Assembly (NCBI GenBank): GCA_031179165.1
Contig: JAPSIC010000013.1
Span: 1-37,639, forward strand
DNA length: 37,639 nt
Reading direction: 5' to 3'
Source: Brevibacterium sp.
Lineage (GTDB): Bacteria > Actinomycetota > Actinomycetes > Actinomycetales > Brevibacteriaceae
Below the pieces are notes generated by a model. That model was not told the DNA's origin and searched no databases. It was given only the letters and a program-made list of their open reading frames with translations. Numbering within the stretch: the first letter of the stretch is position 1; the number at the start of each line of letters is the position of its first letter. A program made the translations under genes and the position numbers. Of this stretch, positions 10,083 to 37,267 are shown in pieces.

Positions 10083-11957
10083 TCAGTAGTGGCCCGGAGG
10101 GTCACTGCCGGGGAACGACTCCTCTCCCCATTCGTCGGCCAACGCGTCATCATGGGCGTGGCGATCGGCGGTCGTGCCCGGCCGCTCCGCCTCCTTCTCC
10201 GGTGCTGCGTCGGGAACGCTCTCGACCTCGTCCGACCCGCCGGGATCCGGTCCGGTCCCGTCCGGCTGCTGCGTCATCATCTCTGCCTCCTCGGTGTGTT
10301 CTTCCCTTTCCTGTCCACGGTGGTGGTCAGGGAACTGTGGGTGGAAGGTCTCACGGTCGTCACGGAATGCCCGCGCCCGCGCATACGCGTGGACCTCGCC
10401 CAGGGCCTCGGCCTGGGCCACCGCCTGGTCGGCCAGGTCCCGGAAGACCTGCGGCTCCAGTCCGAGCAGATCGGCGTTCGCCTCCAGCGTCTGCCAGCCT
10501 CCGAGCTTGCCGATCACGGCGCTGCGCATCAGCTCGGCCTCGAGGACAAGGGTCAGGGGTGAGCGCTGGGTGATCCTCCCGTTGCTCTTCAGCCGGCCCA
10601 GGCGCTCGCCCACCCAGGACACGGCCTGTCGGTAGGGCAGCTGCTTCATCCCGAGGTCGTGGATGAGGTTCTGCAGGAAGGAGCGCTCGAGCCTGATCTC
10701 CTCGGCGACCTCCGACAGCTTCGCGTAGACCGGTGTGTCGATGTAGGCCGCCGACATCCGCTCGATGCGTTCGACCCCGGCGGTCGCGCCGGTGAGATGA
10801 TCGGACAGATAGAGGTTGAGGAGGTCGACGGTGACCGCATCCGAGACACCGCCGCCAGGCCCACCGGGTTCGACGCCCTCCTTGACCCAGCCGTGCGCCG
10901 CGGCCAGATGCCCGGCATCGGGATCCCGGGGGCGCAATGGGACCGACGCGGTTCCCGAGCCCTCGATCATGCCCGAGATGAGGATTCGCAGCGCATCGGC
11001 GGCCGAGGTCCGCGGGGTCCAGCCGAGCTCGCGCTTGGCGGCGGAATTGTCCATCCGCGGCACCGACAGCGCCATGTCGAGCCATCCTTCGTCGGCGGCC
11101 AGGAGCCGGGCCTTGTGGGCGCCGAAGACGAAGGCGCGCACCAGCCGCGGGGGAAGCCGGACGAAGCGGCCGTGATCGACGATGTCCGCCAGCTCCTGCG
11201 GGCCGAGGATGTCGTCGGCGCAGATGTTGAACGCCCCGGGGACCCGCTTGACGACGGCCGCGGCATAGGCGGCGGCCAGGTCCTCGGCGGTGACCGCCTG
11301 GACCCCGCGCAATCCCTTGGGCACGGGCAGGACGGGCGGTCTGACGACGCCGAGGGCCTGCATCGGGATCCAGCTGCCGAGGAAGTACCGCTGGATCTGG
11401 TGGGCGGCGCCGGCCTGGAACACGAGCGCCGGACGCAGCCGAGTGACGAGGATTTCGGGGTGGGCGGAGGCGAACTCGTCGAGCACGCGCTCCTGGGCGG
11501 CCTTGTCCACGCTGTAGTGGGAGGTGCCGATTCCTTCGACCGGCCACGACTCGTCGCGTCTGTCCTCGGCGGTGTCGGGGGAGTAGGCGGCCCAGGAGGA
11601 GGCGACGACCAGATGCGAGACGCCTGCCTCCGCCGCGGCCCTGGCCACCCGGATCGTGCCCTCGACATTCACCCTCCGCAGCAGGTCGCGATTCGAATTC
11701 GGCTGGATCAGCCAGGCCAGATGGACGACCGCGTCGACGCCGCGGAAGGCATCGCGGAGCTCGGCGAGGGCCTGGTCGGCAGAGCTGGCCGCCGCGATGT
11801 CGATGGAGGCCCATTCGCACTCGGAATACGGGGCCACGGCAAGGTCGGGCATGCGGCGGGCGATGCCGAGGACCGAGGTCACCTCGGGGCGATCGAGCAG
11901 GGCGGTGAGCACTGCGGTGCCCGTGTTTCCTGTGGCGCCGACGACGGCAACGCGCAT
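10083..11957 (-). CDS. SDR epimerase fused to a helical domain and an ESFPxSDPP tail
   Basis: One 624-residue frame holds three parts. Residues 1 to about 345 are an NAD(P)-binding extended SDR: GATGNTGTA at the start, then SHYSVDKAAQE with the YxxxK pair. Residues ~365-540 are an all-helical region with LNLYLSDHLTGATAGVER, EEIRLERSFLQ and WVGERLGRLK. It resembles a stand-alone actinobacterial family of unknown function with a ferritin-like look. The last ~80 residues are charged and disordered and end in DEWGEESFPGSDPPGHY, a motif usually seen at the end of short separate proteins. No stop or frame change separates them. GAGGAG precedes ATG 11957. It lies upstream of the redox gene run on the same strand; a stress-related role is inference. 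Confidence 0.8.
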   Translation of the reverse strand: MRVAVVGATGNTGTAVLTALLDRPEVTSVLGIARRMPDLAVAPYSECEWASIDIAAASSADQALAELRDAFRGVDAVVHLAWLIQPNSNRDLLRRVNVEGTIRVARAAAEAGVSHLVVASSWAAYSPDTAEDRRDESWPVEGIGTSHYSVDKAAQERVLDEFASAHPEILVTRLRPALVFQAGAAHQIQRYFLGSWIPMQALGVVRPPVLPVPKGLRGVQAVTAEDLAAAYAAAVVKRVPGAFNICADDILGPQELADIVDHGRFVRLPPRLVRAFVFGAHKARLLAADEGWLDMALSVPRMDNSAAKRELGWTPRTSAADALRILISGMIEGSGTASVPLRPRDPDAGHLAAAHGWVKEGVEPGGPGGGVSDAVTVDLLNLYLSDHLTGATAGVERIERMSAAYIDTPVYAKLSEVAEEIRLERSFLQNLIHDLGMKQLPYRQAVSWVGERLGRLKSNGRITQRSPLTLVLEAELMRSAVIGKLGGWQTLEANADLLGLEPQVFRDLADQAVAQAEALGEVHAYARARAFRDDRETFHPQFPDHHRGQEREEHTEEAEMMTQQPDGTGPDPGGSDEVESVPDAAPEKEAERPGTTADRHAHDDALADEWGEESFPGSDPPGHY

Positions 11958-12010
11958 GAGCTCTCCTCGATTCGGGACGGAGGGCCGAGTGCCCGTCCGC
12001 TCATACGCTC

Positions 12011-14612: not shown

Positions 14613-14641
14613 CTTGTATCTGGAGCCCGGGTTCTCGCTCA

Positions 14642-14763
14642 GCTGCTCCACGGGAGCGCAGCTCTCGGCTCGGCTGCTCCACGCGTGCGGCTCTCAGCTC
14701 GGCTGCTCCAGGGGAGTGCGGCTCTCAGCTCAGCTTCTCCACGGGAGCGTAGCGCAGCAGCAG
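14642..14763. repeat. Four degenerate 29-31 bp tandem units at the 3' end of pcrA
   Basis: Units begin at 14642, 14673, 14702 and 14733 with GCTGCTCCA or GCTTCTCCA, followed by a CGGGAGYGC-like block and CTCTCRGCTC. The fourth unit (from 14733) is the coding end of pcrA including its last codons. The other three lie just beyond the stop codon. Copies 1 and 3 agree at about 26 of 31 positions. Confidence 0.75.
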
Positions 14764-27603: not shown

Positions 27604-28048
27604 CGGGCGGGACCGCCGGGATCGTCGCGGCGATGGCGACCCTGCGGCGACGCTGCCCATGGTCGAGCGCCCAGGACCACGCGAGCCTCGAGAAGTTCGC
27701 CCGGGAGGAGACCGAGGAGCTCATCGAGGCCCTCGAGGAGTACCGGGAGAACCCGAGCGCGGGGCATCGTGAGGCGCTGATCGAAGAGCTCGGGGACGTC
27801 CTCTACCAGGTGCTGTTCCATTCGGCGCTGCTCGACGAGAGCGGCGCCGCAGCCGCGAACCGCGCGGACGTCCGGTACGGTGAGACGCTGCAGCTGATCA
27901 TCGACGGACTCGAGGAGAAGCTCATCCGCAGGCATCCCCTCGCGTTCGGCGACGACGCCGAGGACGGACGGATGGCTCCGCTGGCCGACGTCGAGGCCGA
28001 ATACACTCGCATCAAGTCCGAGGAGAGGCAACGGAAGGACGCACGGCA

Positions 28049-28052
<4 letters not shown>
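27600..28052 (+). CDS. mazG: MazG-type nucleotide pyrophosphohydrolase (single domain)
   Basis: MazG hydrolyses non-canonical NTPs to NMP and PPi, clearing damaged precursors. The 150-residue protein has one MazG domain, shorter than two-domain E. coli MazG. It starts with a CPW motif (RRRCPWSSAQDH). The metal-binding EExxE is in REETEELIEAL and the ExxD in EELGDVLYQV. The DGLEEKLIRRHPLAFG segment is typical. ATG 27600 overlaps the TGA of mfd (ATGA), and its own stop overlaps the GTG of the next gene, so three genes are translationally coupled. Confidence 0.92.
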
Positions 28053-30305
<2,253 letters not shown>

Positions 30306-30407
30306 GCCGCATCGGCTGCGGCGTGGAGGTGTGATCGCGGCTGCGGTCGCATCGAAGTTCACCTGAGGTAGCAGCCCGCTCGCGGTCGCGGTCGCACCGC
30401 AGCCTCA

Positions 30408-30456
30408 CCGAGGCGGGGGCGAATTGAGTTCGACGCTCACTTCGCCCCCGCCTCGG
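30408..30456 (+). terminator. Terminator after eno
   Basis: CCGAGGCGGGGGCGAA (30408-30423) pairs with TTCGCCCCCGCCTCGG (30441-30456), 16 bp with a 17-nt loop, about 100 bp after eno. The gene-free stretch 30306-30689 holds only this hairpin and the repeat array at 30521-30640. Confidence 0.7.
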
Positions 30457-30520
30457 CGTCAGTCGACTGCGCCGGATTCACAGGTCGACCGCAGCTCCTC
30501 CCGTCGGCCGCGTCTCCTCT

Positions 30521-30640
30521 GCTTGGCGTCAATTCACACCGGTGGGCCCAATTCGCACCATTGGCTTCGCCAGCCGCACCATGAGCCCCAACTCGCACCG
30601 TTGGCTTCGCCGGCCGCACCATGAGCCCCAACTCGCACCC
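30521..30640 (-). repeat. Array of six ~20-bp repeat units on the 3' side of the nuclease gene
   Basis: Read on the minus strand, six 20-bp steps each carry GGTGYG at or one base after the step start: 30640-30621, 30620-30601, 30600-30581, 30580-30561, 30560-30541 and 30540-30521. Two unit types alternate in the first four: GGTGCGAGTTGGGGCTCAT and GGTGCGGCYGGCGAAGCCAA. The 40-bp pairs at 30561-30600 and 30601-30640 differ at only two bases. The last two units are more diverged (GGTGCGAATTGGGCCC, GGTGTGAATTGACGCC). Spacing is constant with no unique spacers, so it is not CRISPR. Confidence 0.85.
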
Positions 30641-30689
30641 GTGCAAGGGGGTGAAATGCAGCCACCGGTTCCCAGACTGGCGAGAGACC

Positions 30690-31772
30690 TCATGCGACTC
30701 GCATCAATGCCCTCTTGATCTCGATGAATCTCCGTTCATGGAAGAGCTCCTTCCAGCTGATGCGGATCACCAGGTAGCCACGGTCGCGCAGCCACTGTTC
30801 GCGTCGGCGCTCCTTCTCGAGCTCCTCGCGCGGAACTCCGGAGTTCAGGTACAGCTTTCCGAGGCCGTCGATCTCAACGATGAGCCGAGCGCTCCGATGA
30901 CAGAAGTCGACCCGGATGTCTTTTGACAGTGATTCGTGTCTGAAGACCACCTGCGGTTCCATACCCGTGATTCCGTACTGGTAGAAGCGCACGGCCGCGA
31001 TCGACTCCGCCGGGGACTCGCGTCGCGCATCGGCCAGGTCAAGGGCCAAACGCACCTTCTTCGTGTTCCTCTTCTCCGCACACTGATCGAGCGTCGCGAG
31101 GATAGTGTCCGTGGTGGTCAGCTGTCGGTGCAGGGCGCTGTCGAGCATCGCCACCGCGATGTCGAGATTGTAGTGACGTGCCACGTCGATGAGCGTCCGT
31201 TCGAGCGTGGTGACCAGGATTCCGCCTGTGCGGACTCGGTGTTGTGGAGGCACGTTGCTGCCCCGCACCAGGAGGCTCTTGAACTGGCGGTTGACTCCTG
31301 GGCGGAACACCTCGACCTGGTGCGTGACCGGGTAGGCAACGGGGAGTCCGTGAATGAGCGCCGCTGAGATGTGGGAGAAGGTCTCGGGTGCCTCCGTCGA
31401 ATCGGTGCGCTCCGGTGCTTCGTCAACATGATTCGGTTCAGCCTCGGGCAGCCTCTGCTGGCGTTCCTGACGTCTCAATCGCTCCTGGCGTTCCTGGAAT
31501 TTGAGTTCGCACCGCGCCATCACGGCAGCATTGAGCTCTTCGATCCGATCTCGGTTGTCGCCGAACCGTTTGAACTCATCGTGCGCGTTCTCTTCGATGC
31601 TCGCCCACAGCGGGCGATGGCTGTGCACCGCGCAGATATGCCGTGCGACATAGACGCCGCGGGACAGACGGAGAAGGCAACAGTTGCGTGCCCGCCGAAT
31701 CTCTTCCGAGGTGAAGCCGAGCCGTTGGAGCTCCTGGGTCGTGAGAATCTTGTACATAACACTAAACTTCAT
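30690..31772 (-). CDS. AbiEi-like winged-helix / DUF559-type (Vsr-like) endonuclease protein
   Basis: From ATG 31772 the protein has 360 residues. The N-terminus (YKILTTQELQRLGFTSEEIRRAR, then RGVYVA) resembles the DNA-binding domain of AbiEi antitoxins. A charged Glu/Arg linker of ~60 residues and a central domain (SAALIHGLPVAYP; TLERTLIDVARH) follow. The C-terminal ~90 residues look like the DUF559/Vsr-type PD-(D/E)xK nuclease: DIRVDFCHRSARLIVEIDG, an E/R helix, and RGYLVIRISWKEL. Actual activity is unproven. ATG 31757 is an alternative start. The gene is visibly A/T-richer than its neighbours near the start, stands alone on the minus strand between eno and ftsB, and is flanked by repeat arrays, suggesting acquisition. 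Confidence 0.8.
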   Translation of the reverse strand: MKFSVMYKILTTQELQRLGFTSEEIRRARNCCLLRLSRGVYVARHICAVHSHRPLWASIEENAHDEFKRFGDNRDRIEELNAAVMARCELKFQERQERLRRQERQQRLPEAEPNHVDEAPERTDSTEAPETFSHISAALIHGLPVAYPVTHQVEVFRPGVNRQFKSLLVRGSNVPPQHRVRTGGILVTTLERTLIDVARHYNLDIAVAMLDSALHRQLTTTDTILATLDQCAEKRNTKKVRLALDLADARRESPAESIAAVRFYQYGITGMEPQVVFRHESLSKDIRVDFCHRSARLIVEIDGLGKLYLNSGVPREELEKERRREQWLRDRGYLVIRISWKELFHERRFIEIKRALMRVA

Positions 31773-31778
31773 CAAACG

Positions 31779-31784
31779 ACTATA
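31779..31784 (-). promoter_or_regulatory. Candidate -10 box for the nuclease gene (leaderless)
   Basis: On the minus strand TATAGT lies 6 nt before ATG 31772, in an A/T-rich stretch (about 31750-31800). No Shine-Dalgarno sequence is seen. Confidence 0.5.
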
Positions 31785-31914
31785 AATAGCAATAGAAGCC
31801 GCAGATCTGTGGAAAACGGTGGAGCGGGAGGTTGACCGGTCATCGTCATTCAGATGCAGAGTGGTCACCGGTGGCAGTAGTTCCTACACCTGCACGGGGG
31901 TGTTCTGGCACCAG

Positions 31915-32034
31915 CGATGGAAGTTGCAAAGCTGCCGGTGCGGGTTGAGGTTAACGGTGGATGTTGCGGTCCTGCCGGTGCGGGTTGAGGCCAACGATGG
32001 AAGTTGCAAAGCTGCCGGCGTGGTTGCCGACGCC
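31915..32034 (+). repeat. Array of ~40-bp (19+21) repeat units on the 5' side of the nuclease gene
   Basis: Three 40-bp units at 31915-31954, 31955-31994 and 31995-32034. Each pairs a GATGGAAGTTGCAAAGCTGCC-type half (given here at 21 bases less one end base: ATGGAAGTTGCAAAGCTGCC) with a GGTGCGGGTTGAGGYYAAC half; the third unit degenerates at its end. The GGTGCGGGTTGAGG core matches GGTGCGAGTTGGGG of the array at 30521-30640 at 12 of 14 bases, but in the opposite orientation. The gene-free stretch 31773-32181 otherwise shows only the nuclease promoter. Confidence 0.8.
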
Positions 32035-32181
32035 GGCTTCCGCACGGTTCTGGACAGGTCGTATCGGATGCCGGAACCGAACACGCCATGACTCGGAAAT
32101 CCTCGCTCGCCCGAAGCGGACACGGCACACTTGGAAGTGCTGCGACCGCCTTCCCAGTCCTCGGTGGCAGCGGAAAGAGTC

Positions 32182-32670
32182 ATGGTCCCGAGCAAGCCCA
32201 AGAACAGCGCCCCCCGATCGGCCCCGGGCAGAGCCGCACCTCGGCGTCGCCCCGCCCCGGTGGTGGAAGCTCATGCGTCCAACGACCGCCGGCGGCTGTC
32301 CTGGCGGACGGGAATCTTCCTCGTCGTCATCGCTCTCGTCCTCGTCATGTTCCTGCCCTCGATCAACTCCGCGCTCAAGCAGGCCCAGCAGATCGCTGCG
32401 CTCAACAATGAGATCGCGACGACCAGGGCCGAGGTCGAGGCGCTGGAGGAGAAGAACGAGAAGCTCAACGACCCCACCTACATCGCACGCCGGGCCCGGG
32501 AAGAGCAGTACTACGTCAAGGAGGGCGAGAACGCCGTCATCGTCATCAATCGCGACGCCCTGCCCGGCGCCGAATCCGAATCCGACCGCTCGGCGGGCAA
32601 GCAGGCCTGGTACCTTGAGTTGCTGGAGTCGATTCAACAGGTCGGCAATACCGTGGAGAAGGGCAGATGA
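32182..32670 (+). CDS. ftsB: FtsB/DivIC-type septum formation protein
   Basis: FtsB (DivIC) is a bitopic divisome protein that works with FtsL and FtsQ to activate septal wall synthesis. It has 162 residues: a basic, Pro/Ser-rich cytoplasmic tail (~1-38), one transmembrane helix at about 43-60 (TGIFLVVIALVLVMFLP), then a coiled coil (LNNEIATTRAEVEALEEKNE) and the family motif YIARRAREEQYYVKEGE. ATG 32182 follows GGAAAGAG. Its stop overlaps the start of the DUF501 gene (ATGA). In related bacteria it follows eno directly. Confidence 0.9.
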   Translation: MVPSKPKNSAPRSAPGRAAPRRRPAPVVEAHASNDRRRLSWRTGIFLVVIALVLVMFLPSINSALKQAQQIAALNNEIATTRAEVEALEEKNEKLNDPTYIARRAREEQYYVKEGENAVIVINRDALPGAESESDRSAGKQAWYLELLESIQQVGNTVEKGR

Positions 32671-33230
32671 TCACAGAGTGCACCGAGGCGGATTTCGCCA
32701 CCCTCAGAGAGCAGCTGGGACGCCTCCCGCGCGGGGTCGTCGGGATCGCCGCGCGCAGCACCTCGGGGGAGCCTCTGGTGGTCGCGACAGCACCGCGGCT
32801 GGAGGACAACACTCCCTTCCCGACCACGTTCTACCTCACCCACCCCGCGTTCGTGGCTGAATGCTCCCGCCTCGAGGCGGCAGGGATCATGGCCGAATGG
32901 ACGGCCGAGCTGGCGACCGACGACGAGCTGGCCGCCGCCTACCGACGCGCTCACGAGGACTACCTGGCCACCCGCTCGGCCATCGGCGAGCGGGCCGGGA
33001 TCGCCGAGGTGGAGGAGATCAGGGACTTCTCCGCCGGCGGCATGCCCACCCGGGTCAAGTGCCTCCACGCCCTCGTCGGCCACGCCCTCGCCGCCGGTCC
33101 GGGGGTCAATCCGATCGGGGATCGGGCGATCGGGCTGATGAGCGACGTGCCGACTCCTGCGGTCACCCCGGCCGAAGCCGACGACGCTCCGGACCCGACG
33201 GGCACCTCGGCGAGCGAGGCGACCGAGTAG
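32667..33230 (+). CDS. DUF501 family protein
   Basis: The 187-residue protein has the DUF501 pattern: LGRLPRGVVGIAARS, FPTTFYLTHPAFVAECSRLEA, and the Cys-bearing GMPTRVKCLHALVGHALAAGPGVNPIGD. Function is unknown, but the gene nearly always lies between ftsB and ppx in actinobacteria. ATG 32667 overlaps the ftsB stop, so the two are coupled. The C-terminal 25 residues are acidic and disordered. Confidence 0.92.
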   Translation: MITECTEADFATLREQLGRLPRGVVGIAARSTSGEPLVVATAPRLEDNTPFPTTFYLTHPAFVAECSRLEAAGIMAEWTAELATDDELAAAYRRAHEDYLATRSAIGERAGIAEVEEIRDFSAGGMPTRVKCLHALVGHALAAGPGVNPIGDRAIGLMSDVPTPAVTPAEADDAPDPTGTSASEATE

Positions 33231-33284
33231 TCTGGAACGACGACGCTCGATGAAGTAGGACCGACCCAGAAACAGGATCAATCC

Positions 33285-34232
33285 ATGCGTGTAGCTGCAT
33301 TCGACTGCGGGACCAATTCCCTGCGCCTGCTCATCGCCGACGTCGATGACGACGGCACCATGAAGGAGCTGCGTCGCGAGACCCGCATCGTGCGACTTGG
33401 CCAGGGGGTCGACGCGACTGGTGAGTTCGCTCCCGAGGCGCTGGAGCGCACGTTCACCGTCGCGCAGGAGTTCGCCGAGGTGGCCGCCGAGTACGAACCG
33501 GAGAAGCTGCGGTTCGTCGCCACCTCCGCAAGCCGCGACGTGAAGAACCGGGATGAGTTCTTCGCCGGGATCTTCAGGATCCTCGGTGTCGTGCCCGACG
33601 TCATCACCGGCGACGAGGAGGCGCAGCTGTCGTTCCTCGGCGCCACGGTCGGACGCCGCGCCGATGCGGGCCCGTTCATGGTGATGGACCTGGGCGGGGG
33701 TTCCACCGAACTCGTCCTCGGCACGAGCGGTGTCGAGGCGGCGGTGAGCATGGACATCGGCTCGGTCCGCCTGACCGAGAGGCACATGCCCTCCGAGCGC
33801 CCGGACTCCGAGCAGATCTCGGCCGCGGTAGCCGACATCGAAACCCATCTCGACCAGGCCGCCGAGATCCTCGACTTCTCCGCCCCGCGCACCTTCATCG
33901 GGGTGGCCGGAACCGTGACCACCCTGACGGCAGGCATCCTCGACCTCGACAGCTATCAGCGGGAGAAGATCCACGGTGCTCGACTCTCCGTCGGCGACAT
34001 CGAACGCCAGGCCGACCAGCTGCTGAGCATGGACCGGGAGGAGCGAGCCGCGCTGCCCTACATGCACCCCGGTCGCGTCGACGTCATCGGCGCCGGCGGG
34101 CTCCTGTTCTCCCGGGTCGTGCGACGCATCGACGCCGCGGTCGTGTCCGTCGGGGCGGAGCTCGACATCACGGTGTCCGAGACCGACATCCTCGACGGCA
34201 TCGCCCTCGATCTCACGCGACCGCCGCAGTGA
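33285..34232 (+). CDS. ppx: Ppx/GppA-family exopolyphosphatase
   Basis: The 315-residue protein is a short, single-core Ppx/GppA enzyme of the ASKHA fold. It hydrolyses terminal phosphate of polyphosphate or pppGpp; which of the two is not decided by sequence. Motifs: FDCGTNSLRLLIADV (phosphate 1), FVATSASRDVKNRDEF, ITGDEEAQLSFLGA with the catalytic Glu, and MVMDLGGGSTELVLG (phosphate 2). AGGATC precedes ATG 33285. The short length matches the actinobacterial Ppx1 type. It is followed after 10 bp by a subtilisin-like protease gene. Confidence 0.92.
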   Translation: MRVAAFDCGTNSLRLLIADVDDDGTMKELRRETRIVRLGQGVDATGEFAPEALERTFTVAQEFAEVAAEYEPEKLRFVATSASRDVKNRDEFFAGIFRILGVVPDVITGDEEAQLSFLGATVGRRADAGPFMVMDLGGGSTELVLGTSGVEAAVSMDIGSVRLTERHMPSERPDSEQISAAVADIETHLDQAAEILDFSAPRTFIGVAGTVTTLTAGILDLDSYQREKIHGARLSVGDIERQADQLLSMDREERAALPYMHPGRVDVIGAGGLLFSRVVRRIDAAVVSVGAELDITVSETDILDGIALDLTRPPQ

Positions 34233-37198: not shown

Positions 37199-37267
37199 GG
37201 CAGCCGGACGGCATCCGCCACGGCAGCCTGACGGTGTCCGTCAGGGCGACCTGACGGCAGGGTGGCG
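37199..37267. repeat. Degenerate ~23-bp repeats after the ndh terminator
   Basis: GGCAGCCGGACGGCATCCG (from 37199) and GGCAGCCTGACGGTGTCCG (from 37222) are two copies, about 18 of 23 bases alike. A weaker third copy starts at 37245 with GGCGACCTGACGG. Confidence 0.5.

Follow-up and report, generated by a model that had tools for sequence, protein, structure and literature searches.

Iteron systems, such as that of F RepE, use one half-site in two arrangements, in direct repeats phased at about two helical turns and in an inverted repeat. REPs are described in one study as intergenic palindromes found mainly between convergent or same-direction genes, with complementary changes in the stem and G-T pairs; a unit as defined there is 20-40 bp long and tagged at one end by GTAG or CGTC, the stems of most GTAG members are 6-9 bp long, and the main text of the study makes no mention of Actinobacteria or Brevibacterium (PMC3733652). 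A role for REPs in ending transcription or protecting mRNA ends has been proposed. Inverted repeats are also reported to be bound by the AbiEi of Streptococcus agalactiae, where binding serves autoregulation (PMC7319586). Literature searches for DUF559 and for actinobacterial REPs returned nothing relevant, and the open-access literature, surveyed by titles and the beginnings of abstracts together with few subscription papers, contained no description of an element of the kind presented here in Brevibacterium.

The window analyzed here is a whole stretch of 37,639 nucleotides from Brevibacterium sp., in which a first-pass annotation had placed two inverted repeat arrays, A (30521-30640, minus strand) and B (31915-32034, plus strand), around a single nuclease gene. 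Both arrays are present at these positions. Each is one arm of a larger element rooted at a dyad centre that the annotation had overlooked. This element is interspersed between genes in one Brevibacterium clade, and A and B belong to two of its copies. The element resembles REP/BIME sequences in being interspersed, intergenic, palindromic and present in many copies per genome, in preferring convergent and same-direction regions while avoiding divergent ones (34, 28 and 1 of 63 sites, respectively), in its location 3' of coding regions, and in the complementary changes of its stem. It differs from them in being a symmetric dyad of ~54 bp with 25 stem pairs and no one-sided tag in an alignment of 43 sites, in its outward half-sites at a phase of 19/21 bp, in its retention at several orthologous positions, and in the lack of Y1_Tnp (RAYT) matches in the ten genomes searched. 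As in iteron systems, its half-site occurs in phased direct repeats and as an inverted repeat, where the phase is seen and the binder putative. Unlike iterons, the element is found at ~2-35 places per genome, these places lie downstream of genes, each array starts from a dyad, and a Pfam scan revealed no initiator among the flanking proteins scanned.

Inspection of the locus from left to right begins with eno (enolase, 28719-30305, plus strand), which converges on the nuclease gene. A GC-rich hairpin read by eye at 30406-30460 lies 3' of eno and is distinct from element A; a similar hairpin, again by eye, is found 3' of eno in congeners. Array A runs from dyad centre A (30619-30668; axis 30643/30644, TGCA at 30642-30645) toward eno. 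The AbiEi-like/DUF559 gene (30690-31757, minus strand) occupies the space between the two elements, and is followed by dyad centre B (31868-31917; axis 31892/31893, TGCA at 31891-31894), from which array B extends toward the right neighbour, a ftsB/divIC-type gene (32131-32670, plus strand). The arms were delimited with Tandem Repeats Finder and a half-site scan, the centres by profile match and symmetry, and the gene was assigned with Pfam and PADLOC. Its 355-aa product carries a Pfam DUF559 domain at residues 272-341 and matches PADLOC AbiEi profiles over residues ~104-245, with no match in NCBIfam. The gene resembles AbiE, a type IV toxin-antitoxin system, in having AbiEi-like regions and, between A and B, in having the element B dyad upstream of it, in the divergent promoter-side region. 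It differs in that no AbiEii, the nucleotidyltransferase toxin that an AbiEi antitoxin accompanies in AbiE, lies directly beside it, the direct neighbours being eno and the DivIC-domain gene, and in that the element is absent at 16 other DUF559 loci.

The periodicity of the two arrays is 40 bp. Tandem Repeats Finder assigned this period to array A at 30547-30639 (94% matches) and to array B at 31911-32018 (75% matches). Array A has two copies of the core GGTGCGAGTTGGGG on the minus strand (30586-30599 and 30626-30639), and array B has two of the core GGTGCGGGTTGAGG on the plus strand (31937-31950 and 31977-31990); 12 of 14 bases are identical between the two cores, as had been noted. The 40-bp period (19+21) proposed for B holds. 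The strict 20-bp period proposed for A was wrong, given that self-matching at lag 20 (28/100) equals the shuffled mean; matching is 45/101 at lag 19, 41/99 at lag 21 and 58/80 at lag 40, such that A likewise repeats every 40 bp with sub-spacings near 19 and 21. Measured from the central half-site, half-sites fall at 0, 40, 80, 99 and 137 bp in A and at 0, 21, 40, 61, 80 and 101 bp in B. The arrays also align with each other better than shuffled sequence: A(-) against B(+) gives a local score of 42, compared with 21.5 +/- 3.7 when both arrays are shuffled with doublets preserved (1/2000 reached 42) and 12 for A(+) against B(+).

The common dyad centre with its TGCA axis was recognised from the same locus in congeners and from two other arrays in the window's genome. 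Half-sites are usually repeated outward from the dyad on one or both sides. An ungapped alignment of 43 strong sites, all of them high-scoring matches and several mutually orthologous, gives CACCGTnAGCGCCAnAACACCCCGGTGCAACGGGGnGTTnTGGCGCTGACGGTG with TGCA at the axis in 43/43; these are 43 of 45 loci, two (L132 and L150) having been dropped as near copies of orthologs. Within this alignment, 79.8% of stem cells are paired, versus 69.7 +/- 0.9% in shuffles and ~40% when the two sides are slid, and the covariation score is 0.315 versus 0.160 shuffled (0/500 shuffles). A single orthologous convergent site followed through 10 genomes is 89.6% paired versus 77.5% shuffled (0/500), and in 12 pairs both partners have changed. 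These compensatory changes exceed the needs of a plain protein site and suggest a role for base pairing as well. A set of 39 centres, most of them eno-ftsB copies, has a symmetric consensus and little covariation (59.4% versus 57.6% paired, 33/500; score 0.236 versus 0.207 shuffled, 13/500). Symmetric positions number 13/24 at centre A and 11/24 at centre B, neither of which folds better than its shuffles (z -0.02 and +0.44); eight copies chosen as strongly symmetric fold at z -7.1 to -10.7. Stems therefore range from strong to weak between sites, while A and B retain their phased arms.

Phasing of the arms was analyzed beyond the window. Across 128 arms there are 115 extra outward half-sites, 78 of them at exactly 19, 38, 40, 59 or 78 bp, and extra half-sites in the reverse orientation total 29. 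With in-phase offsets defined as 19/21, 38/40, 59/61, 78/80 and 97/99 bp, for which ~9.5% is expected if positions are uniform, a profile built from genome G053 and applied to three other genomes placed 25/47 extra outward half-sites in phase, and exchanging training and test sets placed 45/60, where some sites are orthologous between the two sets. Among 64 sites, in-phase extra half-sites occur on one side in 42, on both sides in 12 and on neither in 10. The arms at eno-ftsB are directed away from the central gene, as the first-pass annotation had described for A and B, and the same holds at this locus in other species: 30 hand-gathered sites hold 62 in-phase outward half-sites versus 3 inward, with more outward half-sites at 26 sites and more inward at 0. 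These copies are of common ancestry, and the count is closer to two observations than to thirty. The combination of protein-array phasing with covarying palindromic arms in one conserved intergenic element is unusual.

To follow the family across genomes, a sequence-only profile, R1, was built from 39 hand-gathered centres, ~30 of which come from eno-ftsB, so that matches at that locus are partly by construction. The profile is nearly symmetric and yields ~2 strand-hits per site. Under strict filters, R1 matched 47 of 57 genus genomes at E <= 0.5. The 38 genomes with close ftsB sequences carry 4-62 strand-hits each, and the other 19 congeners 0-3. The window's genome has 30; its centre A scores E 1.9e-7 in the genome search and centre B E 1.7e-5 in the search of the order described below, both being members of the R1 training set. 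In G053, 66 strand-hits at E <= 1 merge to 35 sites, including one weak match inside a called gene. A search of 297 genomes of the order at E <= 0.01 matched 19. Fourteen of these belong to the genus; the other 5, from ~273 genomes outside it, have 1-2 weak strand-hits each (E 4e-4 or worse), where chance alone would give ~2.7. Named genomes scanned with a pattern yielded three stretches, all Brevibacterium, and viral contigs scanned with a centre pattern gave no match. Simpler searches of the window's genome were less informative: the exact cores with one mismatch gave 59/45 matches versus 72/65 for a reversed control, and a plain lag scan returned mostly other repeats. Further copies in this genome include two between the PEP carboxykinase and phosphate transporter genes (C94:27818-28310) and others at C83 ~1916-1965, C80 ~11918-11967 and C210:5687-5733. 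Contig C94 also holds several copies of a 17-bp tandem repeat (L103:11051-11212) that by eye is unlike the element. In G053, three tandem elements ~170 bp apart share one convergent gap (C1:3036504, 3036674 and 3036843).

The copies are intergenic, and almost all lie 3' of one gene or more. A first set of 43 loci comprises 27 convergent, 15 tandem, 0 divergent and 1 unclassified, with 0 inside a gene. A larger collection of 71 sites from four complete genomes (35/35 from G053, 19/19 from G028, 11 of 16 listed from G056 and 6 of 16 listed from G021) leaves 63 classified sites outside eno-ftsB after removal of 7 eno-locus rows and the weak match inside a called gene; these are the 34 convergent, 28 tandem and 1 divergent sites noted above. 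Gene calls for both collections come from a home-made codon-usage caller. The background, 75 intergenic regions of at least 150 bp sampled from the window's genome, comprises 13 convergent, 28 tandem and 34 divergent regions, and the two distributions differ at p = 2e-9 with sites treated as independent, although some share a gap or are orthologous. Site B at eno-ftsB is the main exception, lying on the divergent promoter side in 4/4 genomes classified. Several sites are retained at orthologous positions in 2-10 genomes, one convergent gene pair in 10. The flanking genes vary and include, besides PEP carboxykinase and phosphate transporter, homocysteine S-methyltransferase, amino-acid permease/GcvT-like and D-lactate dehydrogenase genes, among others.

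Several simple rules for this placement were rejected. The proposal that each half serves one gene, in which case symmetry would be better at convergent sites, found no support in G053 (16.4 versus 15.7 of 24 symmetric positions, p = 0.57) or in the four genomes together (p = 0.74). Neither transcription (tandem sites: 15 arms up, 8 down, 4 ties) nor free space (convergent sites: 11 toward the longer side, 13 toward the shorter, 8 ties) sets arm direction by a clear rule. Site pairs ~1.1-1.35 kb apart do not appear to be the ends of a common cassette, since by eye the intervening genes differ in two such pairs of G053; similarly spaced pairs are also found in G028, G056 and G021.

The reading we favour, to which we give an even chance of being correct, is a protein-binding array at gene 3' ends that serves a putative oligomerising protein and comes nearest to REP/BIME sequences without RAYT; the binding itself we infer from sequence. 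A putative sequence-specific protein would bind the dyad as a dimer and from there spread outward over the phased half-sites, keeping to one face of the helix and combining the logic of an iteron array with that of an inverted-repeat operator. Behind genes, this would set up a nucleoprotein block or a topological boundary, and the complementary arms would also allow the centre to form a hairpin. Protein binding on DNA is favoured because the phase lies in sequence beyond the stem and because phased arms survive where the stem is weak, as at the low-pairing centres A and B. Evidence against a protein array includes the out-of-phase extra half-sites (22/47 and 15/60 in the two out-of-sample tests), the 10/64 sites that lack an in-phase extra, the divergent position of B, and the lack of a clear preferred direction of the arms relative to transcription. 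The earlier suggestion that the arrays are binding sites is best read as holding for some protein; for the nuclease between them, it is not supported.

A base-paired form, RNA or cruciform, is in turn favoured by the covariation and by an excess of G-U mismatches at sites in tandem contexts. One possible, if less than probable, alternative is a 3'-UTR stem-loop RNA, common to both transcripts at convergent sites, that ends transcription or protects mRNA ends, with the phased arms being decayed copies of half a stem. The location behind genes fits this alternative, as do the strong covariation in the 43 sites and at the orthologous site in 10 genomes and the folding of the eight strongly symmetric copies. 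Counting only sites with at least 13/24 symmetric positions, G-U mismatches in the transcribed direction outnumber A-C mismatches by 44 to 23 in tandem contexts (p = 0.014), and at convergent sites, where no bias is expected, the counts are 40 and 51. This excess favours RNA, with strand-specific mutation bias an alternative source. Against an RNA, A and B fold no better than shuffles and the 39-centre set covaries little, and an RNA leaves the 19/21 phasing beyond the stem without explanation. In addition, of 36 segments separating a gene end from its element, 8 contain a perfect stem of their own of at least 9 bp (0.3% in base shuffles), so that some genes have another terminator candidate. 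Rfam had no match to the element at gathering score in window positions 28000-34000, nor at 13 loci, where a tRNA was the sole match, and a known structured RNA family was rejected on this basis. Protein array and base-paired form may both be true.

Two comparisons of sister genomes each show an entire element in one genome that the other lacks. G056 has a 258-bp gap with an element where G052 has a ~26-bp gap between the same convergent genes, and G035 has an element between tandem genes where G043 lacks ~150 bp containing it. We infer loss rather than gain at the compared sites. The contrast is greatest for G043, which has 4 strand-hits versus 45 in its close sister G035, the branches being short at ~0.008 each in a two-protein tree. 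In 513 kb of G035 sequence, R1 found 2 sites, one previously known, and 1 of these 2 has G043 counterpart sequence for comparison. A structured profile, R2, added one weak match (E 0.03) to each of two collinear G035/G043 stretches (L246 and L251), and therefore not every match-like site is gone from G043. General intergenic shrinkage as the source of the loss in G043 was rejected, with 102.6 versus 104.6 intergenic bases per kb over 400 kb each, a comparison that is not orthologous gene by gene. The elements mark gene ends across the clade, other congeners go without them, and one sister pair differs ~tenfold in strand-hits; this contrast makes the reader of the elements, DNA versus RNA action and genomic loss directly testable.

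A bolder extension of the protein array, which we regard as unlikely, is a clade-specific landing system in which a putative oligomerising protein would nucleate on the ~54-bp palindromes, spread along the phased half-sites and insulate convergent transcription, and in which the site set would be purged fast once the system is lost, as in G043 versus G035. In its boldest form, the AbiEi-DUF559 protein would be, or would have been, the guardian of the sites.

The same presence/absence differences, in both sister pairs, and the low count of G043 would also be compatible with a REP/MITE-like mobile repeat or its relic, gained by insertion, lost by excision or slippage and without host function. 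We consider this decidedly unlikely: several orthologous positions are kept, one in 10 genomes, no clear target duplication is visible by eye, and the compensatory changes suggest selection after spread. Transposition by RAYT was rejected, as Y1_Tnp (PF01797) at E <= 0.001 is absent from 10/10 genomes searched, with a positive control matching 5/14 known genomes.

The remaining alternative concerns the nuclease itself, which the first-pass annotation had suggested might recognise or maintain the repeats, or form a cassette with them. What stands of this suggestion is joint presence or absence at eno-ftsB, where the element matches in 30/32 genomes with the gene versus 0/6 without it. Of those 30 genomes, 21 are in the R1 training set; of the gene-bearing genomes outside it, 9/11 match, with G032 and G012 as the misses, and a contig end cuts G012 short. 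The promoter-side position of B in all four classified genomes and the reported binding of inverted repeats by the S. agalactiae AbiEi (PMC7319586) point the same way. The six gene-less genomes also carry fewer elements (32, 33, 19, 4, 5 and 12 strand-hits versus a mean of 35; p = 0.006, uncorrected for kinship). Five of the six have a close gene-bearing relative, G048 being the one without, and all five have the lower count, G003 by one (32 versus 33). A general loss of elements may, however, simply have removed the pair and the gene between, and G003 and G009 keep 32 and 33 strand-hits without the gene. In G051, G002, G019 and G026, the gene is truncated, frameshifted or stop-bearing relative to the window's protein, and element numbers are normal at 34, 23, 28 and 32 strand-hits, respectively. 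Counts for these comparisons and for the correlation below were transcribed by hand.

A more general link between arrays and DUF559 genes is contradicted by the scatter of the repeat through the genome, largely the outcome that the first-pass annotation had named as refuting its idea, and by the paralogs. At 16 DUF559 paralog loci from G053, G028, G056, G021, G016 and G003, among the stronger listed of ~68 matches, 0/16 carry an element at E <= 0.3, and the eno-ftsB copy matched in the same search; across the 38 clade genomes, DUF559 match count and element count are uncorrelated (Spearman 0.06, p = 0.72). We regard it as very improbable that the AbiEi-DUF559 protein recognises or maintains the elements or that A, gene and B form a cassette. 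Our conclusion is that two element copies flank a passenger gene, with a small remaining chance that it is more. Repeats adjoining a nuclease gene need not be nuclease targets.

Other observations concern the genes and repeats around the element. DUF559/AbiEi-like genes have multiplied strongly in the genus, with up to 21 matches per genome among the 57 genomes. In the eno-ftsB gap of G043 (L089), where the gene is absent, short remnants resembling the end of the DUF559 gene and its upstream sequence can be seen by eye. In the window, Tandem Repeats Finder also reported a second tandem array at 14633-14749 (period 31, 3.9 copies, 82% matches) and a 23-bp repeat of 2.7 copies at 37199-37259.
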